A DNA stretch of 64,000 nucleotides, taken from Jannaschia sp. S6380 (GTDB taxonomy: Bacteria; Pseudomonadota; Alphaproteobacteria; Rhodobacterales; Rhodobacteraceae). Position 1 is the stretch's first letter. Every line of letters starts with the position of its first letter. The stretch lies in NCBI RefSeq assembly GCF_023015695.1, contig NZ_JALKAS010000001.1, positions 806,001 to 870,000 of the forward strand, read 5' to 3'. Made by a program: the position numbers and the translations under genes. Below the pieces are notes generated by a model. That model was given only the letters and a program-made list of their open reading frames with translations, ran no database searches and was not told where the DNA came from. This document shows positions 30,802-49,232 of this stretch, piece by piece.

Positions 30802-30825
30802 GTTTTTATCATTGACCTAGTCGCC

Positions 30826-33565: not shown

Positions 33566-34633
33566 TTATCCCGGCCGCCACGACGCATAGAGCGGATGCG
33601 CCGGCGTGATCGGCAGTGCGTGCGGAATGCCGTCGCGATGCGAGGCATAGGCCGCCGTCACCAGCTCCATCGAGGCGCGCGCATCGGCGATGGTCACCGG
33701 CGGCGGGCGGCCCCCGGCCAGCGCCTCGGCCAGAAGTTCGAACTGACGTGTATAGCCGTCTTCCTTCGCCTCGTACGTCGCCAGCGCGGCATCCACGCGT
33801 TCCTGATGCGCCGCATCGCCGCAGACGAAGGTCCAGGGATCGCGCTGCGCATGATAGGGCGCGCGGATGCTCTCGGCGGTCAGGTCGCGAAAGGCAAAGC
33901 GCAGGCGGCTGACCTCCTCGCGCGAGCCCAGTGTCATCGACAGCGCCGCCAGCGAGCCGTTCGCCATCCGGATCGACAACGCGGCGGTATCTTCCACCTC
34001 GATCTCATTCACCAGCGTCGCGACGTGTGCGAACACCTGATCGCACGGCCCGTGGATATAGGTCAGCATGTCATGTGCATGGATCGCGTGGCCCAGCAGC
34101 CCGCCCCCCAGCTCGCCCGCCCAATGGCCACGCCAGTCGACGGCATAGTAATCGGCGTCGCGCCACCAATGGGTCTCGATCGTGGTCAGGAAAGGCTGGC
34201 CCGTCAGACCCGCTCGGACCAGCATCCGCAGCTTCTGCAACCCGCTGCCGTAGCGGTACTGGAAGATCGGCATCAGGCGCCGTCCGCTCTCGCGCTCGAT
34301 CTCGGACATCCGGTCGCATTCGGCCACCGATCCGAACAGCGGCTTTTCGCAGATGACGTGCTTGCCTGCGCGCAGTGCCTTCTCGCACATCGCGAAATGG
34401 CGATCGGGGGGCGTGCAGATGTCGATGACATCGATATCCGCACGCGTCAGAAGGGCGTCGAAATCCTCCACATGCTCGGGGATCCCGTATTCCTGCATCA
34501 GGCCGCCCGCCCGGGGGTCGTCGCGCGTGCACAGGACCCGCACGTCGAAGAACCGCTCGGTCCAGCGGAACGCGGCCAGGTGCAGCGCGGCGATGCCCGC
34601 GCCGACGACCGCGACGTTCAACCTGTCGGTCAT
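33566..34633 (-). CDS. Gfo/Idh/MocA-family dehydrogenase (first of a pair)
   Basis: A 355-residue NAD(P)-dependent oxidoreductase. The N-terminal Rossmann fold has NVAVVGAGIAALHLAAF (6-22), and the EKP catalytic lysine motif appears as CEKPLFGS near residue 97. The C-terminal alpha/beta domain contains GGGLLGHAIHAHDML, with a histidine typical of the active site. Its ATG overlaps the stop of the second dehydrogenase. Family members oxidise or epimerise sugars, inositols or sugar acids; the substrate here is inferred only from the neighbouring sugar genes. Confidence 0.9.
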   Translation of the reverse strand: MTDRLNVAVVGAGIAALHLAAFRWTERFFDVRVLCTRDDPRAGGLMQEYGIPEHVEDFDALLTRADIDVIDICTPPDRHFAMCEKALRAGKHVICEKPLFGSVAECDRMSEIERESGRRLMPIFQYRYGSGLQKLRMLVRAGLTGQPFLTTIETHWWRDADYYAVDWRGHWAGELGGGLLGHAIHAHDMLTYIHGPCDQVFAHVATLVNEIEVEDTAALSIRMANGSLAALSMTLGSREEVSRLRFAFRDLTAESIRAPYHAQRDPWTFVCGDAAHQERVDAALATYEAKEDGYTRQFELLAEALAGGRPPPVTIADARASMELVTAAYASHRDGIPHALPITPAHPLYASWRPG

Positions 34634-35649
34634 GGAATCCCTCCGGTGATGACCTGCGCGCGGGCCTGCGCCTCCAGCGCGATGCGGCAGACGTCGAAGA
34701 CGTGCCGCTGGGTCATCGCCGTTTCGGTCCGATCGCGCACATCGGCCAGAAAGGCGTCGAAATACTCCAGCGGGGTGTCCGCGCAATCCACGCGGTCAAC
34801 ACCTTCGGCATCGACGAGGAAGAGGTGATCGCCCCCTGCCCGCCCGCCGATATCGACGTATTTGCGCATCTCGATATACCCCTCCGTCCCAAGAATCGTC
34901 AGCCGCCCGTCGCCCCAGACCGACAGACCCGCAGGTGTGTACCAGTCGACGCGGACGTATCCCGTCGCGCGATCCGACCGCAGCACGAAATCCCCGAAAT
35001 CCTGGAACCCCGGATGGTCCGGCGTGGCAAAGTTGCCGACCTGGGCCGTCACGACTTCGGCATCGTCCGAACCGGTGTAGTGCAGGAACTGGTCCACCTG
35101 GTGGCTGGCGATGTCGTTGATGATGCCGCCGATGGCGTCCATGTCCCAGAACCAGTCGGGCCGGGCGTTCATCGTGGCCTTGCGGTGGGGGCCCAGTCCG
35201 ACGGTCTGGACCACCCGGCCGATCCGTCCCTCGGCCACCAGATGCCCGGCCTTCACCGCCGCGCGCACGCAGTGCCGCTCCGAAAAGCAGACCGAGAAGA
35301 TGCGCCCCGTCTCGGCGACTGCCGCGCGCGCCTGGTCCAGATGGACGAAGGTGGTGACGGCGGGCTTGTCCAGCATCACGTCCTTGCCCGCCCGCATGGC
35401 CCGGACCGCTAGCGCCGTCCGATCGCGCGGTACGGCGCAGATGCTGACCACCTCGATCCCCGGATCGGCCAGCAGGGTCTCCGCATCGATCTGCGGCACG
35501 TCGGGATAGGCCTGCGCCAGCGCCGCGATCAGGTCGGGCGCCGTGCTGACCGGGTCGTAGCCCGCGAAGGTGGCCCCCGCCGCGACCAGGCCCGCGATAT
35601 GGTTGAAGACGTGGCCGTGGTCGATGCCGATGGCGGCGAAACGGGTCAT
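34630..35649 (-). CDS. Gfo/Idh/MocA-family dehydrogenase (second of a pair)
   Basis: A 339-residue member of the same superfamily but diverged from its neighbour. The nucleotide site reads FAAIGIDHGHVFNHIAG, which lacks the usual GxGxxG, and the catalytic lysine motif is LDKPAVTT. NDIASHQVDQFLHYTG holds the conserved histidine. AGGA precedes ATG 35649. It is the first gene of the minus-strand pair and is divergent from the GntR gene, with an operator-like palindrome between. The altered nucleotide loop may mean weaker or different cofactor binding. Confidence 0.88.
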   Translation of the reverse strand: MTRFAAIGIDHGHVFNHIAGLVAAGATFAGYDPVSTAPDLIAALAQAYPDVPQIDAETLLADPGIEVVSICAVPRDRTALAVRAMRAGKDVMLDKPAVTTFVHLDQARAAVAETGRIFSVCFSERHCVRAAVKAGHLVAEGRIGRVVQTVGLGPHRKATMNARPDWFWDMDAIGGIINDIASHQVDQFLHYTGSDDAEVVTAQVGNFATPDHPGFQDFGDFVLRSDRATGYVRVDWYTPAGLSVWGDGRLTILGTEGYIEMRKYVDIGGRAGGDHLFLVDAEGVDRVDCADTPLEYFDAFLADVRDRTETAMTQRHVFDVCRIALEAQARAQVITGGIP

Positions 35650-35790
35650 GTGATGTCCTGCCTTCGAAATGCGATCACCGGCGCCATGCGGGCCACCGTC
35701 ATCTGGAACCTTAGCCAGCGAAGCCGCATGGACGCAAAGCATGCGTCGCGGCCCGGGCCGCACGATTGCCGCGTCCGGGCCGCACGGCTA

Positions 35791-35804
35791 ATATGCTAGC
35801 ATGT
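35791..35804. promoter_or_regulatory. Operator copy A of the sugar regulon (over the GntR start)
   Basis: ATATGCTAGCATGT contains the perfect palindrome ATGCTAGCAT and overlaps the GntR ATG at 35801. Closely related 14-mers lie at 40206-40219 and 45621-45634, each in a divergent promoter of the same sugar island. Position over its own start codon suggests autorepression by the GntR protein. Confidence 0.7.
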
Positions 35805-36526
35805 CGCGCGCGCCTCCCGCCTTCGATCCGACCGCGCTGCGGCGGTTGGACCACTATGACGGAACGCTTGCGCGTCGGACCTACCTTGCCCTGCGCGAGG
35901 CGATCGTGGCTTTGCGCATCGCACCGGGCAGCGCCCTTCGGAAGGAGGAAATCTGTCGACAGCTGGGCGTGTCCCGCTCGCCCGTCAGCGAGGCCGTCAC
36001 CCGCCTCGCGGCCGAGGGCCTGATCGACATCGTTCCCCAGGCCGGCAGTTTCGTCGCCCGCCTGTCCATGCGCGAGATCCGCGAGGGCGCCTTCCTGCGC
36101 GAGGCGATCGAGGTCGCAGCGATCGAACACCTCGTCCCGATCATCAAAGAGGACCAATTGCGCACGCTGCGCCGCAACCTGTCGATGCAGGCGGTGATCC
36201 TCGACGATGGCGATATCGCGGGGTTCTACGAACTCGACGGCCGGATGCACGCGCTCCTGCTGGATTTCACCGGCTTCCGGCGCATCGCCCGCATCGCCGA
36301 GAGCGCTTGGGTCCATGTCGACCGCGCGCGTCAACTGATCCTGCCGATGGGCGACCGCGTCCGTCGCACGCTGGACGAACACCGCGCCATCCTGACCGCG
36401 CTCGAAGCCCGCGATGCCCCCGCGGCGCGCGAGGCGATGCGCAGCCATCTTCGGCAATTGATGACCGTCCTGGCCCCGCTGGAGATGGAACGCCCCGATC
36501 TATTCCACCCGGAGGACTACGGATGA
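35801..36526 (+). CDS. GntR-family (FCD) regulator, probable local regulator of the sugar island
   Basis: A 241-residue regulator with winged helix-turn-helix (KEEICRQLGVSRSPVSEAV, about 48-66) and an FCD domain rich in helix, with metal-site candidates in FYELDGRMHALL and WVHVDRARQL. It is first in an operon with an isomerase and a PfkB kinase (4-bp overlap). Palindromes of one type lie over its start and in two other divergent promoters within 10 kb, so it probably represses all three units until a sugar intermediate binds. It is distinct from the hexuronate GntR at 19512-20258. Confidence 0.9.
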   Translation: MSRAPPAFDPTALRRLDHYDGTLARRTYLALREAIVALRIAPGSALRKEEICRQLGVSRSPVSEAVTRLAAEGLIDIVPQAGSFVARLSMREIREGAFLREAIEVAAIEHLVPIIKEDQLRTLRRNLSMQAVILDDGDIAGFYELDGRMHALLLDFTGFRRIARIAESAWVHVDRARQLILPMGDRVRRTLDEHRAILTALEARDAPAAREAMRSHLRQLMTVLAPLEMERPDLFHPEDYG

Positions 36527-37500
36527 CCCTTGCAAATCGCCCGCGATACGCGGCGCGGCTCAACGCATTCAAGCCGCTGGCCGAGGCGCGGGGCGGCGGC
36601 ATCGCGGGCATGATCGCCGCGGCGGGCGAGGTCAGCGGGCTGGACGCGGCCGACCTGAACTATCCCGACCATTTCCGCGATCACGATCCCGCCCGGATGT
36701 CAGACATGCTGGGCAGGGCGGGCCTGTCGCTGAACGGGCTCGCCATGCGTTATTATACCGAGCCGGCCATGATGATCGGCGCCTTCACCAACCCCGATAT
36801 CGACATCCGCCGGAAGGCCATCGACCTGACGCGCCGGGGCATGGATGCCTGCCGCGCGATGGGCGGCACGGTCATGACGCTGTGGATGGGGCAGGATGGC
36901 TTCGACTACGCGTTGCAGGCCGACTATGCCCGGATGTGGGACGACACGATTGGGGCGCTGCGCGAGGTGGCCGACCACGACCCCGGACTGGACATCGCCG
37001 TCGAATACAAACCGAACGAGCCGCGCGCCTATGCCTTGATGCCGGATGTCGGCACCACGCTGCTGGGCGTGCGCGAGGCGGACCGCCCGAACCTCGGCGT
37101 GACGCTGGACTTCGCCCATGTCCTCTATGCCGACGAGATGCCGGCCCACGCCGCGCATCTGATCGCGCGGCATTCCCGGCTTCTGGGGGTTCACCTGAAC
37201 GACGGCTACGGCAAGCGCGACGATGGGTTGATGGTGGGCACCGTCCACCCGGTCGCAACGGTGGAGCTGTTCGCGGAGCTGGACCGGATCGGCTATGACG
37301 GCGCGATCTATTTCGACACCTTCCCCGATCATGGCGGCCTCGACCCGTTGGAGGAAGCGCGCACGAACCTCGCCCTGGTCGAACGCCTGCGCACGCTCGC
37401 CGGCGAGTTGGGCAGGGACCCCGTCCTTCACGCCGCGATCGACCGGCAGGACGCAGCGACGTCGCAGCGGATCGTGGCGCGCGCCCTCTACGGCCTGTGA
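36523..37500 (+). CDS. TIM-barrel sugar isomerase/epimerase (xylose isomerase-like)
   Basis: A 325-residue AP-endonuclease-2-type TIM barrel. Metal-binding candidates are the glutamate in IAVEYKPNEPR, aspartate/histidine in VTLDFAHVLYADE, and the late VHLNDGYGKRDD and YFDTFPDHGG segments. This resembles L-rhamnose-isomerase-like or ketose 3-epimerase proteins. GGAGGAC precedes ATG 36523, which overlaps the GntR stop. In this operon it would interconvert the sugar before phosphorylation by a kinase. Exact substrate cannot be read. Confidence 0.8.
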   Translation: MTLANRPRYAARLNAFKPLAEARGGGIAGMIAAAGEVSGLDAADLNYPDHFRDHDPARMSDMLGRAGLSLNGLAMRYYTEPAMMIGAFTNPDIDIRRKAIDLTRRGMDACRAMGGTVMTLWMGQDGFDYALQADYARMWDDTIGALREVADHDPGLDIAVEYKPNEPRAYALMPDVGTTLLGVREADRPNLGVTLDFAHVLYADEMPAHAAHLIARHSRLLGVHLNDGYGKRDDGLMVGTVHPVATVELFAELDRIGYDGAIYFDTFPDHGGLDPLEEARTNLALVERLRTLAGELGRDPVLHAAIDRQDAATSQRIVARALYGL

Positions 37501-38285
37501 CGGTTCTCGTCTTCGGATCGCTGCATTGGGATGCGATCGTCGCCGCCCCGCGCCTGCCCGCGCCGGACGAGACGCTGATGGGCACGGATGCCACCTACCG
37601 CTTCGGCGGCAAGGGCGGCAATCAGGCGCTCGCCGCCGCGGCGGCCGGCGCACGGGTCGCTTTCGCGGGCGCCGTCGGCACCGACGAGGCTGCACCGCGC
37701 CTTCTTGCGCGACTGGACGGGGCCGGCATCGATCGCAGTCGGGTGGCCACCGTCAACGGTCCGTCAGGCATGTCGGTCGCCATCGACACCGGCGCGGATT
37801 ACGGCGCGGTGGTGGTGTCCGGCGCCAACCTGCACGCGACGCCCGGCGACCAGCCCACAGACCTGCGCGTCGCGCTGATCCAGAACGAGGTGCCGGCAGC
37901 CGCGAACCTCGCACTCGCCCGCGCCTTGCCTGCGCATGCGACGCTGATCCTCAACGCGGCCCCCTTCCGCCCGCTCGACCCGGCCCTACTGGCCCGGGTC
38001 GACATCCTGGTCGTCAACCGCGTCGAGGCCGCGCAGATGGGCGCCGACGCGTTCGGCGACCATGTCACCGTTGTGACCCGCGGCGGCGACGGCGCGGACC
38101 TGCATCGCGACGGCACCACGACATACCATCCCGCCGAAAAGGTCGAAGTATTCTCGACCCACGGCGCCGGCGACGTCTTTTGCGGAGTGCTGGCCGCCGG
38201 TCTCGCCATCGAACAATCGTTGCCCGACGCCATCGCGCGGGCCCAGACCGCGGCCGCGGTTCACGTCTCGAACCGGCGACGGTGA
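37497..38285 (+). CDS. PfkB-family carbohydrate kinase (ribokinase-like)
   Basis: A 262-residue kinase with the N-terminal signature FGGKGGNQALAAAAAG (36-51) and the C-terminal signature FSTHGAGDVFCG, in which aspartate 226 is the catalytic base. It is shorter than typical ribokinases (about 305), lacking part of the lid region or C-terminus. The GTG start overlaps the isomerase stop. A second ribokinase-like gene lies at 47190 in the same putative regulon. The substrate may be a ketose, ribose or nucleoside-type sugar. Confidence 0.85.
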   Translation: MTVLVFGSLHWDAIVAAPRLPAPDETLMGTDATYRFGGKGGNQALAAAAAGARVAFAGAVGTDEAAPRLLARLDGAGIDRSRVATVNGPSGMSVAIDTGADYGAVVVSGANLHATPGDQPTDLRVALIQNEVPAAANLALARALPAHATLILNAAPFRPLDPALLARVDILVVNRVEAAQMGADAFGDHVTVVTRGGDGADLHRDGTTTYHPAEKVEVFSTHGAGDVFCGVLAAGLAIEQSLPDAIARAQTAAAVHVSNRRR

Positions 38286-38319
38286 CCCTTGCCTCATCTT
38301 GCCGGAAATACCTCGGGGT

Positions 38320-38336
38320 CCGGGGCAGCGCCCCGG
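38320..38336. terminator. Short hairpin between convergent genes
   Basis: CCGGGGC pairs with GCCCCGG around a three-base loop in the 54-bp gap between the PfkB kinase and the convergent amidohydrolase gene. No T tract follows. The preceding GGAAATACCTCGGGG resembles short intergenic repeats I associate with this order, which could be tested by counting copies. Confidence 0.5.
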
Positions 38337-38339
38337 TCG

Positions 38340-39161
38340 TCAGATCCGGTAGAACACCGCCGCCGTTCCACCGAATATCCGGTCGCGGTCCACCTCGGAC
38401 AGATGCGCCGTCAAGTCCTCCGTCGCGCGCATCCAATCCCCGTATTCCGCCCGCAGACGGCAGACCGGCCAATCCGAACCCCACATCATCCGTTCCGGCC
38501 CGAAATGCGCGATCAGGTGGTCGACATAAGGCTGCAGGGCATCCGGCGACCAGTCGGGCGCGGCCTCCGTCACAAGCCCCGAAAGCTTGACGCAGGCGTC
38601 GGTATCGCGGGCCAGGCGCGCCATTCCTTCGGCCCATTCATCAAGAGCCTGCGCCGCAACGTCGGGCTTCATGCAATGGTCGATGACGGCGCGCATCCGG
38701 TGCCGCGTCAGGATCGTGTGAAAGTTGTCGAGGTGGCGCGGGAAGCCGAGCGCGTCGAAAGCCAGGTCCAGGTCGGCGACGGCCTCGAACCCCCATTGAA
38801 CGTCGTCGCGCAGCATCCAGTCGGTGTCGACGATGTCCTGGATCATCGGGCGCACCCCACGAAACTTCGGATGACCGGCGAGACGCTTCAGCGTCGCGCG
38901 GTCGGACGGATCCTCGAAATCGATCCAACCGACCACTCCGGCGATCCAGGGCGTGGCATCGGCGAGGCCCAGCATGTATTCCGTCTCGGCCACGCTGGGG
39001 GCGGCCTGTACGATCACCGTTTTTTCAATTCCGTGCTCGCGCAGTGTGTCCGCCAGATCGCCGGGCCCATAGGCGCGGTTCAGGATCGGCTCGTCCTTCG
39101 GCATCCAGCCATAATCGCCCCGCCCCGGGTGCCAGAGGTGATGATGTGCATCGACCTTCAC
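38340..39161 (-). CDS. Amidohydrolase family protein, L-fuconolactonase-like
   Basis: A 273-residue metal-dependent hydrolase of the COG3618 type. KVDAHHHLWHP at the N-terminus gives the first metal histidines, VIVQAAPSVAETEYML and GVVGWIDFEDP follow, and MMWGSDWPVCR near residue 230 gives the aspartate. Relatives open L-fucono- or L-rhamnono-lactones. The GTG at 39161 overlaps the aldo/keto reductase stop (GTGA). The pair suggests oxidation of an aldose to a lactone, then hydrolysis to the acid. Confidence 0.85.
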   Translation of the reverse strand: MKVDAHHHLWHPGRGDYGWMPKDEPILNRAYGPGDLADTLREHGIEKTVIVQAAPSVAETEYMLGLADATPWIAGVVGWIDFEDPSDRATLKRLAGHPKFRGVRPMIQDIVDTDWMLRDDVQWGFEAVADLDLAFDALGFPRHLDNFHTILTRHRMRAVIDHCMKPDVAAQALDEWAEGMARLARDTDACVKLSGLVTEAAPDWSPDALQPYVDHLIAHFGPERMMWGSDWPVCRLRAEYGDWMRATEDLTAHLSEVDRDRIFGGTAAVFYRI

Positions 39162-40180
39162 ACCGGCGCGTCCTGCCGCAGAAGCCCTTCGGCCTTCAGA
39201 TCGGACCACAACGCCGCCGGGATGTCCGCATCCGCTGCGGCGATGTTGCCTTCCATCTCGGACACGCCCTGCCCGCCCGGGATCACGCTGACGGTGCAGG
39301 GATGGAGCAGCGGGAAACGGAACGCCGCGTCGACGAGCTTCACGCCATGGCTGTCGCAGACCCGCTCGATCCGGGCGACGCGGTCCAGCACGTCCTGATC
39401 CGCCACCTCGTAATTATAGTAGGCACCCGCCTTCGGACCGGTCGCGAGGATGCCCGAGTTGTAGGGCCCGCCCGTCACGATGCCGATGCCCCGCGCCTCG
39501 CAAAGCGGAAGGAACGAGGTCAGCGCCTCCTGTTCCAGGAGCGTGTAGCGGCCCGCCAAAAGGAACAGGTCGTAATCCCCGCGCTCCGCCAGTTGCTGGC
39601 AGACCTCCCATTCGTTGACCCCGGCGCCGAAGGCCTTGATGGCCCCCTCCCGCCGCATCCGCTCCAACGCGTGATAGCCGCCGGCCATCAACTGATCGAC
39701 CTTGGCGTCCACATTCGCGCGCGATCCCTGGTTCGGCACGTCGATGTCATGGGCGAACAGGATGTCGATCCGGTCGACGCCCAGCCTCTCGAACGACGCC
39801 TCGAGCGAACGCATCACGCCCTCATAGCTGTAGTCGTAGACCTCGCGCCGATTGGGCACTTCGAACCATTTGCCGTGGCCGTCGCGGGTTTCTGCCGTCG
39901 CGCGCGCCAGGTAGCGCCCGACCTTCGTCGACAGGACGTATTCGTCGCGCGGCTTGTCGCGCAGGAATCGGTTCAGCCGCGTCTCCGACAGGCCCAGCCC
40001 GTAGAGCGGGGCCGTATCGTAGTAGCGCACCCCCGCCGCCCAGGCCCGATCGAGGATCGCGTCGGCCTCCGCATCGGTGATGGCCCGATAGAGGTTGCCG
40101 AGCGGCGCCGTGCCGAAGCCCAGCTCCGTGAAGGTCAGCCCGCCATTGCCAAGCCTGTCCCAATGTCGCGTCGCCAGCAT
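39158..40180 (-). CDS. Aldo/keto reductase, D-threo-aldose 1-dehydrogenase (L-fucose dehydrogenase) like
   Basis: A 340-residue AKR. LGFGTAPLGNLY starts the barrel; the catalytic aspartate and tyrosine lie in YYDTAPLYGLGLSE, the lysine in VLSTKVGRYL and the histidine in ILFAHDIDVP. These are close to aldose dehydrogenases that oxidise L-fucose or similar sugars to the 1,5-lactone with NAD(P). Coupled to the lactonase by a 4-bp overlap. Its promoter is shared with the divergent FGGY kinase and holds operator copy B. Confidence 0.88.
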   Translation of the reverse strand: MLATRHWDRLGNGGLTFTELGFGTAPLGNLYRAITDAEADAILDRAWAAGVRYYDTAPLYGLGLSETRLNRFLRDKPRDEYVLSTKVGRYLARATAETRDGHGKWFEVPNRREVYDYSYEGVMRSLEASFERLGVDRIDILFAHDIDVPNQGSRANVDAKVDQLMAGGYHALERMRREGAIKAFGAGVNEWEVCQQLAERGDYDLFLLAGRYTLLEQEALTSFLPLCEARGIGIVTGGPYNSGILATGPKAGAYYNYEVADQDVLDRVARIERVCDSHGVKLVDAAFRFPLLHPCTVSVIPGGQGVSEMEGNIAAADADIPAALWSDLKAEGLLRQDAPV

Positions 40181-40205
40181 CCTGCATCCCCCTGCCCTGA
40201 TGGCG

Positions 40206-40219
40206 ACATGCTAGAATGT
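40206..40219. promoter_or_regulatory. Operator copy B of the sugar regulon
   Basis: ACATGCTAGAATGT differs by two or three bases from copies A and C, and like copy A is followed by CGCGCG. It lies between the aldo/keto reductase and FGGY kinase genes. A further GCTAGCGTCG at 40233-40242 recurs near copy C (45662-45671), possibly a second half-site or promoter element. Confidence 0.7.
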
Positions 40220-40263
40220 CGCGCGTCCCGGCGCTAGCGTCGCAGTCGGGGGGATCAATCGCG

Positions 40264-41739
40264 ATGACCTATCTGCTCGGGATCGATATCGGCACGTTCG
40301 AGGGCAAGGCCACGCTGACGCGCCCCGACGGGGAAATCGTGGCACGGGCCACCCGCCCGCACCAGATGGACGTGCCGCATCCCGGCTGGGCCGAACACGA
40401 TGCCGAAGCCGTCTGGTGGGACGGTCTGACCGCGCTTTGCCGGGACGTGCTGTCTGGGGTCGATGCGGACAAGGTGGCGTGCCTTGCCGTCAGCGGGATC
40501 GGCCCTTGCGTCCTGCCGGTCGACGCGGCGGGCGATCCGCTGGCGCCGGCCATCCTCTACGGCGTCGACGCGCGCGCAACGGCCGAGATCGCGGAGATGA
40601 CCGAACGGTTCGGTGCCGATGCGATGCTGGCCAACTCGGGCAACGTGCTGACGACGCAGTCGGTCGGGCCCAAGGTCCTGTGGCTGGTCCGCAACCGGTC
40701 GGAGGTCTGGGCCCGGACCGAGGCGATCGAGACCTGCACGACCTTCCTCGTTCGGCGACTGACCGGGGCGCGGGTGCTCGACCACCATTCCGCCGGCCAA
40801 TGGACGCCCTTCTACGACGCACGGGCGAACGCCTGGTCGCCGGCGATGTGCGACGGCATCGTCGATCCCGCGATGCTGCCCCGTCTGGTCTGGACGACCG
40901 ATATCGCCGGCACGGTCACGCCGGATGCCGCCGCGCGCACCGGCCTCGTCCCTGGCACGCCGGTCACCGCAGGCACGATCGACGCGGCGATCGAGGCGGT
41001 CAGCGTGGGCGTGCGCGATCCGGGCGACATGATGCTGATGTACGGGTCCAGCACCTTCATGATCCAGGTCACGCCCGACCGCCTGGTCGATGCGTCGCTC
41101 TGGTCGGCGCCGTGGCTGACACCCGGCAGCTGGTGCAGCATGGCCGGTCAGGGCACGGCGGGCACGCTGACCCGCTGGTTTCGCGACACCTTCGCCCGCG
41201 AAATGGGCGACGACGCCTTCGCGCGCCTGACGGCCGAGGCACGGGACGTGCCGCCGGGGGCGCGGGGCCTTCTGTGCCTGCCTTACCTTTCGGGCGAGCG
41301 CACGCCGATCCAGGACCCGAAGGCCAAAGGCGCGTTCTTCGGCCTCGACCTGCGGCACGACCGGGGCGCGATGTTCCGCGCGGTCTGCGAAGGCGTGGCC
41401 ATGGGGACGGTCCATATCGTCGAGGCATTCCGCGCCGGCGGCGCCGACCCTGCCCGGGTGCTGGCCGTCGGCGGCGGCGTCCAGAACGACGTCTGGTTGC
41501 AGGCGACGTCGGATCTGGCGGGGGTGGCGCAGTCGGTCTGCCGGTCCAGCGTCGGCGCGTCGTTGGGCGATGCGTTCCTGGCCGGCTGCGCCGTGGGCCT
41601 TTGCGCGCCGGGGGACATCGCGAACTGGAATCCGGTGGACCGGGTGGTGGAGCCCGTGGCGCGCAACGTCTACGCCCGGCAATACCCCCTCTGGCGCGCC
41701 CTCTACGAGACGACGAAGGACATCGCGCACGACCTCTGA
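40264..41739 (+). CDS. FGGY-family carbohydrate kinase (xylulokinase/fuculokinase-like)
   Basis: A 491-residue sugar kinase. The phosphate loop is LGIDIGTFEGKATL (the usual form is DxGTxxxK, and D, G, T and K are kept). GYLSGERTP-like LPYLSGERTPIQDPKAKGAFFGL and LAVGGGVQNDVWLQ are the second FGGY signature region. It would phosphorylate a keto-sugar or polyol made by the adjacent enzymes. It is alone on its strand, divergent from the aldo/keto reductase, and ends four bases before the convergent ABC permease gene. Confidence 0.92.
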   Translation: MTYLLGIDIGTFEGKATLTRPDGEIVARATRPHQMDVPHPGWAEHDAEAVWWDGLTALCRDVLSGVDADKVACLAVSGIGPCVLPVDAAGDPLAPAILYGVDARATAEIAEMTERFGADAMLANSGNVLTTQSVGPKVLWLVRNRSEVWARTEAIETCTTFLVRRLTGARVLDHHSAGQWTPFYDARANAWSPAMCDGIVDPAMLPRLVWTTDIAGTVTPDAAARTGLVPGTPVTAGTIDAAIEAVSVGVRDPGDMMLMYGSSTFMIQVTPDRLVDASLWSAPWLTPGSWCSMAGQGTAGTLTRWFRDTFAREMGDDAFARLTAEARDVPPGARGLLCLPYLSGERTPIQDPKAKGAFFGLDLRHDRGAMFRAVCEGVAMGTVHIVEAFRAGGADPARVLAVGGGVQNDVWLQATSDLAGVAQSVCRSSVGASLGDAFLAGCAVGLCAPGDIANWNPVDRVVEPVARNVYARQYPLWRALYETTKDIAHDL

Positions 41740-41743
41740 CGGC

Positions 41744-42667
41744 TCATTTCACCGCGCCCGCCGCCATCCCCTTGATGATGTAGCGTTCCAGCAGGATCCC
41801 GATGACGATCAGCGGCAGGATGGCCGCGAAGCTGAGCGCCGCCATCGACCACCAGGAAATGCCCTGCGACCCGGTCTGCGACGCCACCATCACCGGAAGC
41901 GTGTTCGCGTGGGTCGAGGTCAGCAGCGCCGCGAAGAAATATTCGTTCCAGGTCAGAACCAGCGCCAGGATGAAGGCCGCCACCATCCCCGGCAGCGCGA
42001 TCGGCAGGATGATCGTCAGGAACGCGCCCCAGATGCCCAGGCCGTCGACCATCGCCGCCTCCTCCAGCTCGGTCGGAATGGCGCCGAACTGGTCGCGCAT
42101 GATCCAGATGACGATGGGCAGCACGGTGAGGGTATAGAGGAGGATCAGGCCGATCCGGCTGTCGAGCAGGGCAAGCGACTTGTAGAGGACGAGGAACGGC
42201 AGCGCGAGCACCACCGGCGGCAGGATCAACTGACTGAGGAAGAAGAACGAGATGTCGCCGTTCTTCATCGGCCCGAAGCGATAGTCGAACCGCGACAGGC
42301 CATAGGCCGCGCAGGCGCCCAGCATCGTCGCCAGGATCGAGGCCGAGACCGAGATGATGGTGGAGTTCCAGAACCGCTTGAGGAACTCGTCGCGCACGGT
42401 GCTGACCTGGCCGATCGTGTCCGGCGACAGGCCGAGCGCGCGCCAGCCCAGGCGCTTCGGCTCGAAATCGACGTAAGGAATCATGTTGCCCTGCATCACG
42501 TCGGGCGCCGCCTTGAAGCTGGTGGTGACGGTCCAGTAGATCGGAAACAGGCAGACGACGGCCCAGGCGATCAGCAGGGCGTAGATGCCCAGCTTGCCCA
42601 GCACGAAGCCGGGGCGGAAGGCGCGGTCTACGGGATGGTCGTGGAATATCTGCGTCTCGGTCGTCAC
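41744..42667 (-). CDS. Sugar ABC transporter permease (MalG type, CUT1 family)
   Basis: A 307-residue inner-membrane protein with six transmembrane helices. The EAA loop reads ELEEAAMVDGLGIWGAFLTI, as in carbohydrate uptake CUT1 permeases, and LTWNEYFFAALLT follows. It starts seven bases after the stop of the MalF-type permease, so the two are coupled and would form a heterodimeric channel. Confidence 0.93.
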   Translation of the reverse strand: MTTETQIFHDHPVDRAFRPGFVLGKLGIYALLIAWAVVCLFPIYWTVTTSFKAAPDVMQGNMIPYVDFEPKRLGWRALGLSPDTIGQVSTVRDEFLKRFWNSTIISVSASILATMLGACAAYGLSRFDYRFGPMKNGDISFFFLSQLILPPVVLALPFLVLYKSLALLDSRIGLILLYTLTVLPIVIWIMRDQFGAIPTELEEAAMVDGLGIWGAFLTIILPIALPGMVAAFILALVLTWNEYFFAALLTSTHANTLPVMVASQTGSQGISWWSMAALSFAAILPLIVIGILLERYIIKGMAAGAVK

Positions 42668-42674
42668 GGCATCC

Positions 42675-43766
42675 TCAGGTCTGGGGTCGGGTCCAGCGTT
42701 CGGTGACCTTCATCAACACGGTCATCGCGATGACGATCAGGATAAGGTAGATGAAGGCCAGCATCGTGCCATAGCCCACGTTCGAGCGGTCGCGGTATTC
42801 GCGGAATATGAAGCTGGTCACCGTGTCGGTCGCGCCGCCCGGCCCGCCCGAGGTGATGTTGATGATGATGTCCGCGAGTTTCAGCTTGAAGATGATGCGG
42901 ATCAGGATCGCGGTGATCGACACCGGCAGCATCAGCGGAAACGTCACTTCCCAGAAGCGCCGCCAGCCGCTCGCGCCGTCGACCTTGGCCGCCTCGATCA
43001 ATTCGCGCGGCACGGCCTGGAGGCCGGCCAGCAGCATGATCATCATGAAGGGGATGAAGGTCCAGGCGTCCATGACCATGATCATCAGGCGCGCGATCTC
43101 GGGCGATCCGAAGAAGCTGGGCGTGTCCCAGCCCAGTTCGCGCGCGAGCCGGGCCATCGGGCCGAAGCGCGGCTCGAACATCGATTTGCCAACCATCCAG
43201 GACACGGCGACGGGGCTCAGCATCAGGGGCAGCAGGAACGCCACGCGAAAGAACTTCCGCGCCCGGATCTCGGCGTTGAGCAGCAAGGCCAACCCGAAGG
43301 CGATCACGTATTCCACCAGGATGGCAGCGGTATAGAGGACCATGTTCCAGAGCGCGTTCAAATAGAACGGGTCCCGCCATGCCTGCCGAAAGTTGTCGAG
43401 CCCGTTGAACTGCCGCCCGTCGGGCGAGGCCAGGTTCCAGTCGCTGAGCGCGATCCCTACGCCGAAGATCAGCGGGAACACCACCATCGCGCCCACGAAC
43501 AGCGCCGCCGGCAGGACGAACAGCGCGCGCTTGCCCTGCTCGCCGCGTCGCACCACCTGCGCCCAGCAAAGCAGCGTGGCGAAGACCATGAAGGCATAGA
43601 GCGTCGGGCGCCATGTCGTCAGGCCCAGGTCCAACCGGCCGGTCTGGTCGAGATATTGCGCCCCCGCCACGACGACCAGCAGCGCCAGCCCGCCCCAGAC
43701 CATCGCCCGACCCGCCCGCATCCGCGCGGGCGTGATATTGTCATCGGTGACGATGTGAAGGCTCAT
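42675..43766 (-). CDS. Sugar ABC transporter permease (MalF type, CUT1 family)
   Basis: A 363-residue permease with about eight hydrophobic segments; two extra N-terminal helices precede the six-helix core. The EAA loop is ELIEAAKVDGASGWRRFWEV. ATG 43766 is chosen because upstream in-frame sequence is GC-rich without a ribosome site. A hairpin separates it from the binding-protein gene. It imports the sugar bound by that protein. Confidence 0.92.
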   Translation of the reverse strand: MSLHIVTDDNITPARMRAGRAMVWGGLALLVVVAGAQYLDQTGRLDLGLTTWRPTLYAFMVFATLLCWAQVVRRGEQGKRALFVLPAALFVGAMVVFPLIFGVGIALSDWNLASPDGRQFNGLDNFRQAWRDPFYLNALWNMVLYTAAILVEYVIAFGLALLLNAEIRARKFFRVAFLLPLMLSPVAVSWMVGKSMFEPRFGPMARLARELGWDTPSFFGSPEIARLMIMVMDAWTFIPFMMIMLLAGLQAVPRELIEAAKVDGASGWRRFWEVTFPLMLPVSITAILIRIIFKLKLADIIINITSGGPGGATDTVTSFIFREYRDRSNVGYGTMLAFIYLILIVIAMTVLMKVTERWTRPQT

Positions 43767-43788
43767 GCGCGGCGGTCCGGTCCTGTAT

Positions 43789-43814
43789 CGCGCCGCCCCA
43801 CGGGGGACGGCGCG
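43789..43814 (-). promoter_or_regulatory. Intercistronic hairpin between sugar-binding protein and permease
   Basis: CGCGCCG-CCCC pairs with GGGG-(A)-CGGCGCG, an 11-bp stem with one bulged A, 17 bases after the binding-protein stop. It resembles in placement the hairpins after dctP and the peptide-binding protein, and probably raises binding-protein output. Confidence 0.6.
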
Positions 43815-43830
43815 GCGTCTCTGGCGCGGG

Positions 43831-45501
43831 TCACATGCCCAGCGACGCCTTATAGAGCGCGATTTGACTGTCGCGGCCGATCTGATCGGTGATCTCCTCC
43901 CATGCGGCGGCGATGGCGTCGGCCGTCTCCTGCGCGCTGCCGTATTGTCCGGCATAGCCCTTGGCCAACTCGTCCTCGGCCACGGAATAATACTGGAAGA
44001 TGCCGGGGATCCGCGGCTCGATGGCGCCGTTGGGGTGATTGTAGCTGTCGAGGTTCGCGCCCAGGAAGTCCTCGATATATGCGCGGTCGTAGCCCGCCGC
44101 CTCCCATTCCTCGTACTGGAAATGCGAGTTGCGGTAGGGCTGGAAGCCCGACGGATAGGCCGAAGCCCAGAGCGACAGGTCCTTGCCGCCCAGATGCGCC
44201 GCCGCCGACCAGGCCGCCTTGTTCTTCTTCGCGTCCTCCTCGGTCTTGGCCATCACGTAGACGCCCCAGCCGATATAGGCGAGGTTCGGGCTCTCGTTGC
44301 GCCCCTCTTCCCACTCGCCCGATTGCGCGTTGTAGACACGCTCCGCCGCCGGGTTGGTCGAGAAGGCCGCGACGTCGCCCACGACCGACGTGTCCGACGT
44401 CCGCGCCGCCGCGCCCACGTCGCCCCACCAGGTCAGCGCGCCGCCGGTGCCGGCGAGGAATTGCTGAAACGCGGTCGTGCCGGGATCGGCGTTGATCTGG
44501 TCGGCCGGATAGGCGCCTTCGGTCGCGATCAGGTCCATGACGTCCTGGATCGCCTGCACGAAGGCCGGGTTGTTGACGCGCGGCTTCATCGTGTCGGGGT
44601 CGAACAGCCAGGCCGGGTCGTCGGGATGCTTGGCATAGGGCGTCGCGCGGTCCTCCAGGAAGTAGAACCCGAACCCGCCCCAACCCTTTAACGGGTCGAG
44701 GAAACCATGCGCGGGCAGCCCGGTCAGCGGATCGGTCTTGCCAGCCAGGAACTTGGAATGGGCGTTCACCTGCTCCCACGTCTCGGGCGGGGCCCAGGGA
44801 CCTTCGTTCCCGGCTTCGGCCCAGGCTGCGGCCAACTCCTCGCTGTCGTAGTAGTCCTTGCGGTAGGCGAAGGTGTGGCAGTCGCCGTCGATCGACACGC
44901 GATAGGTCTTGCCGTCCCAGGTGCCGACGGGGGCCTTCAGGTAATCGACGTAATCGTCCATGTCGATGATGTCGGCGACCCACCCGGGCATCTCGGACGC
45001 CATGCCGCGACCCAGCACGTCGCCCTCGAACGGTGCGCCCATCTCGATGATGTCGAAATCGACGGTGCCGGTGGCGATGCTCTGCTGCAGGCGGGCGTTG
45101 TAGTCGGCCTGCGCCAGATCGATCCAGTTGATCCTGGCGCCGGTGTAATCCTCCCACGACTTCAGGAAGCCGCGGAACAGGAAGTTGTGCGTGTTCTGGT
45201 TGTTCAGCCCCATGAAGGTCAGCTCGACCCCCTCGAACTCGCCTTCCTCCACCGTCTCGCGGGTGGAGCCGAGGCACATCTCGCCCACGCGCTGCCAGTC
45301 GGCGTCGGTCGGACTGCCGGACCCCACGCCGGGGATCTGCAGGATCTCGGCGCGCAGGTTGCCATGCGCGTCGGCCATGGCGGCGCGCGGCGCAAGCCCG
45401 CCCGCGGCGGCCAGGCCCGCGGTCGCCGCGGCCCCCCGCAGAACGGTCCGGCGGCTGATCTTGCCGGTGCGCAGCATGTGGTCGAAGATGTCATGTCTCA
45501 T
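43831..45501 (-). CDS. Sugar ABC transporter substrate-binding protein, Tat-exported
   Basis: A 556-residue extracellular solute-binding protein with a twin-arginine signal ([20 protein letters not shown], about residues 16-35), so it is probably folded before export. The mature part has [28 protein letters not shown] and [13 protein letters not shown] typical of large CUT1 binding proteins. ATG 45501 follows GGGAGG. It is larger than maltose-type binding proteins (about 400) but in range for family 1 proteins of this order. Sugar unknown. Confidence 0.9.
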
Positions 45502-45620
45502 GGGTCTCGCGTCCTCCCTGACGATGCCCCGGGCGGGGCGTGACCGGCGCCGGACCCTCCTCCCCGAAGACCTGACGCAAGGGAACAGTCGCCGCCGCCC
45601 CGCCACCTGTCAAGGGACTG

Positions 45621-45634
45621 GCATGTTAGCATGT
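45621..45634. promoter_or_regulatory. Operator copy C of the sugar regulon
   Basis: GCATGTTAGCATGT in the 190-bp divergent gap between the binding-protein gene and the ABC ATPase. Like copies A and B it is followed by CG. With GCTAGCGTCG at 45662-45671 it mirrors the arrangement near copy B. Confidence 0.7.
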
Positions 45635-45691
45635 CGGGGCGTGACAGCCGGGGACGGGGCCGCTAGCGTCGGGCGCAGGACGGGGGAGCAC

Positions 45692-46738
45692 ATGGCCGAA
45701 GTCACGATCCGCAACCTGCGCAAGAGCTATGGCGCGGTGGAGGTCATCCACGGTCTCGACATCGACATCGCGGACGGGGAATTCGTCGTCCTGGTCGGCC
45801 CGTCGGGCTGCGGCAAGTCCACCCTGCTGCGGATGATCGCGGGGCTGGAGGGCGTGACCGGCGGCACCATCGCGATCGGCGACAAGGTGGTGAACAACCT
45901 CGCCCCCGCACGGCGCGACATCGCGATGGTGTTCCAGAACTACGCGCTCTACCCCCACAAGACCGTCGGCGCGAACATGGCCTTCGCGCTGCGCATGTCG
46001 AAGATGCCCAAGGCCGAGATCGAGGACCGCGTGGCCCGCGCGGCCGAGGTGCTGGGCCTGACGCCCTATCTCGACCGCTATCCCCGCGCCCTTTCGGGCG
46101 GCCAGCGGCAGCGCGTGGCCATGGGCCGCGCCATCGTGCGCGACCCGCAGGTGTTCCTGTTCGACGAGCCCTTGTCGAACCTCGACGCCAAGCTGCGCGT
46201 GCAGATGCGGGCCGAAATCCGGGAGCTGCACCAGCGCCTGGCCACGACCACCGTCTATGTCACCCACGACCAGATCGAGGCGATGACGATGGCCGACAAG
46301 ATCGTCGTCCTGCAGGGCGGGAACGTGGAACAGATCGGCTCACCCCTTGATCTCTATGACCGGCCGGCGAACACCTTCGTCGCGGGCTTCATCGGTTCGC
46401 CGTCGATGAACCTGCTGCCGGCCGAAGGGACGGATGGCGGCGCGACCGTCGACGGCACCGCCCTGCCCGTCCCCGGCGTCGCACCGGGGCGGCGCGTGAC
46501 GCTGGGCCTGCGCCCCGAACATCTGACCCTGGCCGACACGGGCCTGCCTGCGAAGGTCTCGGTCGTGGAGCCGACGGGATCCGAGACCCACATCATCGCC
46601 CGCGCCGGCGACCGCGAGGTCACCGCCGTCACCCGCGACCGGCCCGCCGTCCGGCCGGGCGAGACGATCCACCTGATGCCCGCCCCCGGCAGCGTCCACG
46701 TCTTCGACGGCGAGACCGGCGCGCGCATCGCCAACTGA
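45692..46738 (+). CDS. Sugar ABC transporter ATP-binding protein (MsmK/UgpC/MalK type)
   Basis: A 348-residue ATPase with Walker [10 protein letters not shown] (36-44), Q-loop [14 protein letters not shown], signature LSGGQ (134-138), Walker B VFLFDEP (154-160) and switch histidine in [15 protein letters not shown]. The C-terminal ~100 residues form the TOBE/OB regulatory domain (GLRPEHLTL). It energises the permeases on the opposite strand, which share its divergent promoter. It is the first gene of an operon with FucU-type and PfkB genes. Confidence 0.94.
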
Positions 46739-46750
46739 GAGGAGACCCGG

Positions 46751-47197
46751 ATGCTGAAAGGTCTGGACCCGATCCTGAACGCCGACGTGCTCTATGCGCT
46801 GCGGGCCATGGGGCATGGCGACATGCTGATCCTGGCGGACACGAACTTTCCGTCCGACGCCATCGCACAGGCGACCGTGCATGGGGAGCTTTTGCGCATC
46901 GACCGCCCCATGGCCGAGGTCGCGCGCGCCGTCCTGTCGGTCCTGCCGCTCGACACGTTCGTCGACGATTTCGCCGGACGCATGCAGATCGTGGACGACC
47001 CCGACGCCATCCCCGACGTGCAGACCGAGGTGCAGGACGCCATCGCCGCGACCGGCGAGACGCGGCCCATGGTCGGGATCGAACGCTTCGCCTTCTACGA
47101 CCTCGCGCGCGAGGCCTATGCGGTGATACAGACGGGCGAGCGGCGGTTCTACGGCTGCATCATGCTGCGCAAGGGAGTGATCGCACCCGATGAGTGA
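46751..47197 (+). CDS. RbsD/FucU-family mutarotase (FucU-like)
   Basis: A 148-residue protein that interconverts alpha and beta anomers of a sugar. MGHGDMLILADTNFP (20-34) contains the catalytic histidine 22 and aspartate, and the C-terminal FYDLAREAYAVIQTGERRFYGCIML is closer to FucU than to RbsD. FucU acts on L-fucose and some other sugars, so this supports a fucose-like substrate. It overlaps the PfkB kinase gene by eight bases and follows the ABC ATPase by 12. Confidence 0.88.
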   Translation: MLKGLDPILNADVLYALRAMGHGDMLILADTNFPSDAIAQATVHGELLRIDRPMAEVARAVLSVLPLDTFVDDFAGRMQIVDDPDAIPDVQTEVQDAIAATGETRPMVGIERFAFYDLAREAYAVIQTGERRFYGCIMLRKGVIAPDE

Positions 47198-48107
47198 CAT
47201 CGTCATCCTGGGCGTCTTCGTCGCCGACACGTCCTATCGCGCCGACCGCCAGCCCCGCATGGGCGAGACGATCATGGGCCGGTCCTTCGCGCTCGGCCCC
47301 GGCGGCAAGGGGTCGAACCAAGCCGTCGCGGCGGCCCGCGCGGGCGGGGCCGTGACCTTCGTGTCGAAGCTGGGCCGCGACACGTTCGGCGACATGGCCA
47401 TGGCCGCTTGGGCCGAGGCCGGCGTGACGCCCGCCGTGGAACGCGGCGACGGCTATACCGGTGCCGCCTACATCTTCGTCGAGGAGTCGACGGGCAACAA
47501 CGCGATCATCATTGCCCCCGGCGCTGCGGCCGGAATCGACGCGACCTTCATCGACGCACATGCCGACGCGATCCGGCGGGCGAAGGTCTTCGTCACGCAG
47601 CTGGAGCAGCCGATGGACGCGGCCCATCGCGCGCTGCGCCTGGCACGCGACGGCGGGGCAACCACGATATTGAACCCCGCACCGGCGGCGGAACTGCCGG
47701 ACGGGATGTTGGCGCTCTGCGACTACGTGACTCCGAACGAGACCGAGGCGGAGGCCCTGACCGGCATCGCCGTCACCGACGTGGCGAGCGCCCGGCGCGC
47801 GGGCGACGCGCTGCTGGCGGCGGGGGTGGCGCGCGCGGCCGTCCTGACGCTCGGCGACAAGGGCGCGCTCTACCATGACGGCGACACCAGCCTTCTGGTC
47901 CCGCCCTACAATGCGGGCGCCGTGGTCGAGACGACCGGCGCCGGCGATGCCTTCAACGGTGGCTTCGCGACCGCACTGGCCGAAGGCATGGACCCGCAGG
48001 ATGCCGTGCGCTTCGGCTGCGCCACCGCCTCGATCAGCGTCACGCGGCCGGGGACGGCGCCGTCGATGCCCGACCGGTCCGAGATCGACGCCCTGCTGGC
48101 GGGCTGA
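47190..48107 (+). CDS. Ribokinase (PfkB family)
   Basis: A 305-residue sugar kinase of standard ribokinase length. The N-terminal signature is GPGGKGSNQAVAAARAGG (37-54), and the C-terminal signature VVETTGAGDAFNGGF has the catalytic aspartate 253. It is more ribokinase-like than the PfkB kinase at 37497. With the mutarotase and transporter it could phosphorylate the imported sugar or a later intermediate. It ends the plus-strand operon, convergent with a TRAP binding protein 33 bp away. Confidence 0.9.
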   Translation: MSDIVILGVFVADTSYRADRQPRMGETIMGRSFALGPGGKGSNQAVAAARAGGAVTFVSKLGRDTFGDMAMAAWAEAGVTPAVERGDGYTGAAYIFVEESTGNNAIIIAPGAAAGIDATFIDAHADAIRRAKVFVTQLEQPMDAAHRALRLARDGGATTILNPAPAAELPDGMLALCDYVTPNETEAEALTGIAVTDVASARRAGDALLAAGVARAAVLTLGDKGALYHDGDTSLLVPPYNAGAVVETTGAGDAFNGGFATALAEGMDPQDAVRFGCATASISVTRPGTAPSMPDRSEIDALLAG

Positions 48108-48140: not shown

Positions 48141-49163
48141 CTATTCCTCCGACAGGCCGATCCGCGCGATGAAATCCCGATGGCTCTGCACGATCTCGGC
48201 CGCCTCGGGCGTCTTGGAGGCCCAATCCTCCCACGCCGTCTGCGCGGCCTCGCGGAAGGCGGCGCGGTCCTCGGCCGACCAGTCATAGATCGTCACGCCC
48301 TGTTCGGGCAAGTCGCGCAGCGCCTCGCCGTTCTCGACCAGGGTCAGCATCATCAGGTCCATCGCCATGGCCTTGTGCGCCGTCTCGATGATCGCGCGAT
48401 GGGCCTCGGGCATACCTTCCCAGACGTCGGTGCGACAGGCCAGATGGTCCGACGACATCGAATGGAAGCCCGGAAACGTCGTGTGCTTGGCGATGTCGTA
48501 GATGCCCAAACCGACGTTCACCGCAAGCGACGAGGCATCCGCCCCGTCGATGATCCCGGTTTCGAGCGCGGTGAAGATCTCGGTGAAGTCCATCACCACC
48601 GGCGAGGCACCGAGCGAGGCGAAGATCTCGGTCTGCATGCCCGGGGGTGAGCGGAACTTGAAGTCCTTCAGGTCGTCGATCCCGTTCAGCGGACGGGTGG
48701 AGTTCAGCGATTCCTGACCCCCGATCGCGGCACCGATGAAGGTCATCCCCTGGGGGTTGTACAGCGAATTGATCACCTCGCGCCCGCCGCCCACATTCAC
48801 CCAAGCCTGGTACTGCAAGGGCGTGTCATATCCGCCCATCGTGTCGGCCACGAACTGGAACGCCGGGTTCTTGCCGGTCTGATAGCTGCCGTTGGTCATG
48901 TCGCAGTCGAGGATGCCACTGGCCGCCGCGTCGAACGTCTCGACCGACTTCACGACGCTGGCGGAATAGAACATCTCGATCTCGATATCGCCGCCTGACA
49001 TGGTGTGCACGTCCTCGACGAAATCGGCGATCACCCGGCCGGAAGTGGATTCCGGCGACTGATGGTTCTGGATCCGCAACGTCGTGGTCTGCGCGACCGC
49101 ACCCCCCGCCGTCAGGACAAGCGTCAGAACGGACGCACCTGCGAGTCGATTGCCGAATGTCAT
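48141..49163 (-). CDS. dctP: TRAP transporter substrate-binding protein, orphan
   Basis: A 340-residue periplasmic protein with a signal peptide (about 1-24, GGAVAQ). It contains the DctP binding region SLGASPVVMDFTEIFTALE and GIIDGADA. No dctQ or dctM gene lies next to it in the window. It belongs to the subgroup used for larger carboxylates or keto acids. Same strand and 129 bp after hyuB, with a hairpin between, so it may serve uptake of a hydantoin, oxoproline or related compound. Confidence 0.9.
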   Translation of the reverse strand: MTFGNRLAGASVLTLVLTAGGAVAQTTTLRIQNHQSPESTSGRVIADFVEDVHTMSGGDIEIEMFYSASVVKSVETFDAAASGILDCDMTNGSYQTGKNPAFQFVADTMGGYDTPLQYQAWVNVGGGREVINSLYNPQGMTFIGAAIGGQESLNSTRPLNGIDDLKDFKFRSPPGMQTEIFASLGASPVVMDFTEIFTALETGIIDGADASSLAVNVGLGIYDIAKHTTFPGFHSMSSDHLACRTDVWEGMPEAHRAIIETAHKAMAMDLMMLTLVENGEALRDLPEQGVTIYDWSAEDRAAFREAAQTAWEDWASKTPEAAEIVQSHRDFIARIGLSEE

Positions 49164-49213
49164 GTGATTTCCTCCCTGGATATCGGTAATGGGCCACGCC
49201 GTGCGTGATCCTG

Positions 49214-49232
49214 CCCGCCCCAGCGGGGCGGG
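49214..49232 (-). terminator. Hairpin between hyuB and the orphan TRAP binding protein
   Basis: CCCGCCCC pairs perfectly with GGGGCGGG around the loop AGC, 60 bases past the hyuB stop. No T tract follows on the minus strand. It may end the hyuAB transcript or stabilise it while allowing some read-through to dctP. Confidence 0.5.

Follow-up and report, generated by a model that had tools for sequence, protein, structure and literature searches.

A conserved and probably co-regulated sugar-catabolic island brings known enzyme families together in a new combination in Jannaschia and its relatives

Oxidative catabolism of L-fucose of the Xanthomonas type uses a mutarotase, a dehydrogenase, a fuconolactonase and an L-fuconate dehydratase, and BtpA, a protein family that enters the comparison below, has a photosystem role in cyanobacteria. 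Two other described clusters come close to the locus analysed here: the D-apiose isomerase cluster, which in the available text of its description consists of apsI, aplK, aptA and aptB (PMC13001218), and the E. coli sgcABCEQX cluster, to which no substrate is assigned and for which the accessible part of a 2026 study proposes pentitol-like chemistry, describes chaperone-like features of SgcQ and reports that mutation of sgc left growth without a defect (PMC13343008). We analysed a stretch of 64,000 nucleotides from Jannaschia sp. S6380 (contig NZ_JALKAS010000001.1, positions 806,001 to 870,000; 'the window'), in which an initial annotation had proposed a composite sugar-catabolic island under one operator at positions 33566–48107. 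We find that the island is a real, conserved sugar-catabolic block that joins known families in a new combination and that its genes are probably co-regulated; the initial observation as a whole is partly confirmed, and its interpretation partly supported.

Like the Xanthomonas-type pathway, the window has a FucU-family mutarotase, an aldo/keto reductase (AKR) and an L-fuconolactonase-like amidohydrolase, to which two related genomes (G064 and G075) add an operator-linked L-fuconate dehydratase; unlike that pathway, it encodes an FGGY kinase, a xylose-isomerase-like TIM-barrel protein (TIM) and two PfkB kinases that have no role there, its lactonase and mutarotase lie below the NCBIfam cut-offs, and its genome has no close dehydratase. 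With the D-apiose route the island shares a TIM-barrel isomerase and a sugar kinase, but its TIM protein is only distantly related (157 bits) to 3ktc, a Pectobacterium protein that we take to be possibly ApsI; moreover, no transketolase family was found among the 14 proteins of 33566–48107 and the next gene, and the solute-binding protein (sbp) matches no family. The likeness to sgc lies in two proteins of the island's relatives, a BtpA 45% identical to SgcQ and an M42 hydrolase 36% identical to SgcX, whereas sgc has a phosphotransferase system importer and the SgcE epimerase where these relatives have an ATP-binding cassette (ABC) importer and FGGY.

All gene classes named by the initial annotation were recovered among the 14 genes of 33566–48107, all but the binding protein with Pfam or curated NCBIfam models: two Gfo/Idh/MocA enzymes, a GntR regulator, TIM, two PfkB kinases, the lactonase, AKR, FGGY, the CUT1 importer and FucU. 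The bounds first drawn are nevertheless too wide, the conserved unit being 35792–48107, with the twelve genes at 35801–48107 common to relatives. The Gfo/Idh/MocA pair (33566–35649) is not supported as part of the island, as neither gene had a match in any relative examined, be it in 16 related stretches, of which only 4 (G002, G043, G064 and G075) extend past gntR, or in 80 mapped loci, most of which end short of that region; in this strain the pair may be controlled by operator copy 1, which is separated from the start of gfo2 by 142 bases. The ratio of non-synonymous to synonymous substitution rates (dN/dS) against G002, a genome of the same genus, is 0.10–0.29 in all twelve genes (dS 0.45–0.92), indicating purifying selection.

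In a set of 146 related genomes, 14 besides the window's own encode a close relative of sbp (E <= 1e-250) and one (G021) a distant relative (30% identity). When a collection with a single genome for each species, which overlaps with this set (locus L151 is G075, L164 is G043 and L152 is G041), was scanned, at least 528 stretches were found to encode an sbp relative (E <= 1e-3, orthologues only in part), and the best 80 of these, mostly from named Rhodobacteraceae or kindred genera and many of them marine going by name, were mapped. The usual order is pfkB2-fucU-ugpC, sbp-malF-malG, fggy-M42-BtpA, akr-amh and pfkB1-tim-gntR; gntR left aside, these 13 genes stand in that order in 20 of the 80 loci, many others being cut by contig ends or by the 10-kb flank. 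Taking as right-complete the 62 loci that extend 9.5 kb or more to the right of sbp, we found fggy in 43, M42 and BtpA in 41 each (in all 41 alongside the FGGY kinase), akr in 39, amh in 37, pfkB1 in 35 and tim in 34. All seven of these right-hand genes are present in 24 loci and none in 15. The oxidative and phosphorylative gene sets do occur together, as first described, and this combination is common, not unusual, among relatives. In the open-licence literature (titles and abstract starts) we recognised no paper that deals with the island or with FGGY kinases that neighbour BtpA/SgcQ.

The claim of a single operator repeated at three promoters was borne out. Three copies, each one mismatch from the palindrome CATGCTAGCATG with a central TA, lie in three gaps of 424 bases combined, whereas 200 first-order Markov simulations of the window gave a mean of 0.05 strict sites per 64 kb and a maximum of 1. 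With two mismatches allowed, matches are no commoner in the window (7) than in shuffles (7.8), so that only the strict form is informative. Elsewhere in the genome we found four one-mismatch places (5 rows, against 8 rows for a reversed-pattern control), three of which fall in stop-to-stop open frames longer than 1.8 kb; since none of these sites is convincing, the regulon of this genome is apparently confined to the island. From the sites we infer that GntR would bind and repress at the three palindromes. The gntR start codon annotated at 35801 overlaps operator copy 1, and the true start may be further downstream. In relatives, a site within two mismatches occurs in the sbp/ugpC gap of 20 of 69 loci: in every one of the 8 loci where gntR is visible and in 12 of the 61 measured loci without one, many of which end before the gntR position. 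Of 3 loci that have at least 750 bases beyond tim and no gntR, none has a site, so that operator and gntR tend to occur together. Among the 20 operator-bearing relatives, the btpA/akr gap, which matches copy 2, has a site within two mismatches in 7 of 10 measured, and the region upstream of gntR has a site in 5 of 5.

Table 1. Features of the conserved unit, with window coordinates.
Feature	Coordinates	Strand	Description
operator copy 1	35792..35803		TATGCTAGCATG; gap gfo2/gntR; runs three bases into annotated gntR
gntR	35801..36526	+	FCD-type GntR regulator, putatively acting on the operators; PF07729 84 bits, PF00392 57 bits
tim	36523..37500	+	xylose-isomerase-like TIM barrel; PF01261 84 bits; nearest solved 3ktc, 157 bits
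pfkB1	37497..38285	+	short ribokinase-like kinase; PF00294 119 bits
amh	38340..39161	-	fuconolactonase-like Amidohydro_2, GTG start; PF04909 148 bits; nearest solved 4dlf, 111 bits
akr	39158..40180	-	L-galactose-dehydrogenase-like aldo/keto reductase; PF00248 166 bits
operator copy 2	40207..40218		CATGCTAGAATG; gap akr/fggy
fggy	40264..41739	+	FGGY carbohydrate kinase; PF00370/PF02782; top PDB match 3ifr; nearest model xylulokinase
malG	41744..42667	-	CUT1 permease; PF00528 (BPD_transp_1) 48 bits; 73–92% identity across related loci
malF	42675..43766	-	CUT1 permease; PF00528 (BPD_transp_1) 62 bits; 57–88% identity across related loci
sbp	43831..45501	-	probable Tat-exported CUT1 binding protein, 556 aa
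operator copy 3	45622..45633		CATGTTAGCATG; gap sbp/ugpC
ugpC	45692..46738	+	ABC ATPase; NF008653 506 bits (above cut-off 432); PF00005 112 bits
fucU	46751..47197	+	RbsD/FucU-family mutarotase; PF05025 118 bits
pfkB2	47190..48107	+	ribokinase-family kinase; TIGR02152 304.7 bits (above cut-off 299.65); V at RbsK N14

We read the island as one GntR-controlled regulon in which a CUT1 system would import free sugars into several short routes for several related substrates, which may be sugars akin to L-fucose/D-arabinose or to 2-deoxypentoses, and for this multi-substrate reading confidence and doubt are, in our judgement, evenly balanced. The steps that we infer from the gene content would run as follows. 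Free sugars would enter through the CUT1 system, whose binding protein would be exported by twin-arginine translocation (Tat), and FucU would interconvert their anomers; AKR and the lactonase would oxidise a D-threo-type aldose (of the L-fucose, D-arabinose or L-galactose kind) to the aldonate; PfkB2 would phosphorylate a pentose in which the 2-hydroxyl of ribose is missing or inverted (2-deoxyribose or D-arabinose); TIM and PfkB1 would isomerise and phosphorylate a further aldose; and FGGY would phosphorylate a ketose, the product of which may pass to BtpA in many relatives. An inducing sugar would free GntR from the three palindromes.

Several related substrates are preferred over one pathway because the modules also occur as separate blocks that have importers and regulators of their own. 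On plasmid p42c of Rhizobium etli, the same importer (sbp 73% identical) stands with FucU and a ribokinase, a PfkB that has Ala and not Asn at RbsK position 14, as opposed to the island under a LacI and not a GntR regulator and with no other island enzyme adjoining (gene tables for the plasmids being incomplete). The importer is found again in Agrobacterium vitis and R. leguminosarum, where it adjoins a TIM-CUT2-RpiR-PfkB cassette, which occurs without the CUT1 importer in Pantoea, Vibrio and S. meliloti. The TIM proteins of these cassettes (Pantoea, Vibrio nigripulchritudo, Sinorhizobium and A. vitis) are 54–59% identical to that of the island, and the three of their PfkB kinases that were checked have His at RbsK 14, while an own CUT2 importer and RpiR regulator set them apart from it; for the CUT2 binding protein of A. 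vitis the top scores (127–141 bits) go to MSD proteins, 5dte and D-allose binders. In Pseudoprimorskyibacter insulae (L147) the CUT1 importer directly adjoins a TIM-CUT2-RpiR-PfkB1 cassette, with no pfkB2 in the locus. As for FGGY, a protein 49% identical to the window's lies beside an annotated fucose isomerase in Deinococcus, in Thermus and Rhizobium FGGY-BtpA pairs are accompanied by a short-chain dehydrogenase/reductase enzyme and a CUT1 importer, and in Labrenzia FGGY and BtpA are several genes apart. On a plasmid of V. nigripulchritudo (L072), an FGGY with 42% identity to that of the window has a transketolase-like pair and a RuBisCO-like protein as neighbours, in a cluster that looks like a different pathway. 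The initial annotation had offered an undescribed pathway or a two-substrate system; with blocks found apart under other importers and regulators, the evidence leans to several substrates, and a single pathway is also compatible with it.

The binding protein sbp carries a twin-arginine stretch; its R17 and R18 are conserved without exception in an alignment of 37 sequences that includes the window's. No Pfam model matched it at 1e-5, nor was a solved relative found by sequence, and its role as a CUT1 binding protein is probable from gene order, the annotation of relatives and the predicted fold. The predicted model was also used to look for a substrate and yielded none, as many glycoside binders tied and no family stood out. 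The initial annotation was right to leave the substrate unassigned.

In the oxidative branch, fucU reaches 86 bits against the fucose mutarotase model NF011949 (cut-off 141) and 32 bits against ribose pyranase NF008761 (cut-off 93), and amh reaches 192 bits against L-fuconolactonase NF052480 (cut-off 400); the five best PDB matches of akr are L-galactose dehydrogenases, with up to 100 bits, its family being assigned by Pfam only. The window holds no dehydratase or aldolase, as noted at the outset. The check suggested there, a look for a missing aldolase or dehydratase with the same operator, succeeded for a dehydratase in two relatives; in the window's own genome no convincing operator site pointed to either enzyme, and no L-fuconate dehydratase was found at 1e-60 (best match 63.7 bits over part of the protein). 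As a lead towards an L-fucose-type sugar, the islands of G064 and G075 contain an enolase-superfamily gene that scores 537 bits to the Xanthomonas L-fuconate dehydratase 1yey, with a one-mismatch operator just upstream of, or overlapping, its longest possible start. A homologue lies 3' of pfkB2 on the same strand in 3 of the 80 loci (L102, L113 and L160), and close copies occur in 4 of 15 island-bearing genomes, those of G059 and G087 sitting outside the island. Outside its island, G064 has another gene that resembles L-fuconate dehydratase and contains a single in-frame stop (G064:C1:688801-690057, L087). A 527-aa protein of G064, also encoded in L168, has plasmid relatives annotated as fucose isomerase; it gave no NCBIfam match at 1e-15 and has no solved relative, the isomerase name coming from the plasmid annotation alone. 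Among 20 genomes, 1 was found to encode this fucose-isomerase-like protein, and the window's own was not that one, E. coli FucI not having been used as query. An HxlB-like SIS protein (142 bits, cut-off 160) is present in 8 of the 80 loci.

The kinases offer leads on the substrates. RbsK Asn14 presumably contacts the 2-hydroxyl of ribose, and Tourneux and others reportedly described in 2000 a Met10/Asn14 rule that tells deoxyribokinase from ribokinase, with Met in deoxyribokinase. At the Asn14 position PfkB2 has Val in the window and in all 60 related PfkB2 proteins aligned, the catalytic Asp being kept, so that the Asn expected of ribose use at this contact is not present. PfkB1 has His there and keeps D255; among 36 related PfkB1 proteins the residue is His in 34 and Asn in one, with a gap in one. 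In a distant locus of G021 (L057 7870-16817), likely a 2-deoxyribose locus, a PfkB2-like kinase (57% identical to PfkB2) lies next to deoC and an aldehyde dehydrogenase, together with a distantly related importer. This neighbourhood of deoC fits 2-deoxyribose as the substrate of PfkB2; D-arabinose, with its 2-hydroxyl inverted, would fit as well and would agree better with AKR and the fuconate dehydratase. DeoC itself is encoded in 16 of 16 genomes, the window's own copy (C2:644818) lying outside the island. The curated models for XylA (TIGR02631, 84 bits for tim against a cut-off of 447) and for xylulokinase (TIGR01312, 275 bits for fggy against 380) were not reached. D-apiose, D-xylose and D-ribose were each considered as sole substrate and found unsupported by curated models and by residue and neighbour-gene tests.

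Several observations weigh against the multi-substrate regulon. The 24 right-complete loci with all seven right-hand genes would be explained by a single pathway too, and the sbp model scores glycoside binders and free-sugar binders alike, all tied. Since 49 of the 69 sbp gaps of relatives have no recognisable operator, the GntR regulator is not universal, and in these relatives control presumably depends on a different regulator or on a site that has diverged. No operator lies within 200 bases upstream of the dehydratase genes of L102, L113 and L160, which would consequently need read-through from the ugpC promoter (that promoter has an operator in L102 and L113, not in L160); nor does one within 200 bases upstream of the copies in G059 and G087, and 11 of the 15 island-bearing genomes, including the window's own, have no close dehydratase, several of these assemblies being incomplete. 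On the side of the kinases, PfkB2 lies narrowly above the curated ribokinase cut-off (Table 1), and the available text of a recent study states that plasmid-expressed Salmonella RbsK supports growth on deoxyribose and that DeoK uses ribose (PMC13432705); because the substrates of the two kinase types overlap and PfkB2 passes the ribokinase cut-off, the single residue at N14 is weak evidence. DeoC, finally, is merely permissive, as it is also encoded in 10 of 14 control genomes.

The likeliest of the rival explanations is one undescribed pathway for a single sugar, linear or branched, that would use all the enzymes, with mutarotation, isomerisation and two or three phosphorylations, and with part of the flux oxidised. 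The 20 loci with 13 genes in order and the 24 loci with the full right-hand set are what such a pathway would leave behind, but blocks occur apart with importers and regulators of their own, and we are aware of no chemistry in which one monosaccharide is acted on by a lactonase, an FGGY kinase and two PfkB kinases; on balance we consider this explanation unlikely. That a glycoside or disaccharide is imported, and that the modules handle its two halves, appears distinctly improbable to us; the glycoside binders among the best matches of the sbp model are tied with binders of free sugars. Lastly, decay of the island in the window's genus to a non-working remnant would account for the lack of BtpA, M42, a close fuconate dehydratase and a fucose-isomerase-like protein in this genome and of M42 in 6 of 6 and BtpA in 5 of 6 same-genus genomes searched, but it is very unlikely and we reject it on the evidence of dN/dS, since all twelve genes are intact and under purifying selection, with the operators intact as well, which argues for a shorter form of the island that is maintained and not decaying.

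Neither BtpA/SgcQ nor M42/SgcX was found in the window's own genome. The surroundings of BtpA were surveyed in 385 genomes of the class at the Pfam cut-off, with neighbour probes that had been picked after the Thermus and Rhizobium examples were known. Seventeen genomes were positive, with 18 places, which are not independent (four genomes belong to one genus and two to another, and one genome is counted twice). FGGY lies within the 1.5-kb flank at 13 places (one of them weak, at 25% identity) and a PfkB-like kinase (27–39%) at 3 others, which puts a sugar kinase at 16 of the 18; of the remaining two, one has an AKR as in the island, beside a contig end, and one has none of the probes. The kinase at 16 of 18 alphaproteobacterial places suggests that BtpA/SgcQ acts on phosphorylated sugars. 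The predicted model of the L168 BtpA protein is a TIM barrel (mean predicted local distance difference test score, pLDDT, of 85), for which the best Foldseek matches were phosphoribosylanthranilate isomerase, dihydropteroate synthase, PcrB, thiamin phosphate synthase, ribulose-phosphate epimerase and a 2-keto-3-deoxy-6-phosphogluconate (KDPG)-type aldolase at 11–18% identity, and this predicted fold would fit a phosphate-binding barrel. We propose tentatively, with doubt outweighing confidence, that, except in photosynthetic organisms, BtpA/SgcQ proteins act as phosphosugar enzymes (aldolases or epimerases) on the product of the neighbouring kinase; the Roseobacter form of the island (FGGY-M42-BtpA, AKR-lactonase and TIM-PfkB operons under one regulator) would then represent an undescribed and widespread pathway, and the window's genus would have a cut-down version in which the FGGY product is handled otherwise. 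The results of the 2026 study on sgc, in the part of it available, neither support nor exclude this enzymatic role of BtpA.

As to the neighbourhood, the stretch 31982–33358 encodes a glucuronate (uronate) isomerase above the NCBIfam cut-off, adjoining a LysR regulator, an M19 dipeptidase and an Opp-type peptide importer (25109–30827); the isomerase was not found with the island in relatives, of which few loci reach past gntR. On the other side, 48141–53092 holds a binding protein of a tripartite ATP-independent periplasmic (TRAP) transporter beside hydantoinase/oxoprolinase B and A genes. In or beside the islands of G075 (L047 17764-18834) and G064 (L053 13822-14892) we noted a protein that reads, from its translation, as fatty-acid-desaturase-like.

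Because sbp relatives are widespread and the best 80 loci are often marine by name, the substrate of the island is probably common in the sea. As the island forms of these relatives place SgcQ- and SgcX-like proteins beside a sugar kinase and an importer, the function of both proteins becomes testable through a growth phenotype.

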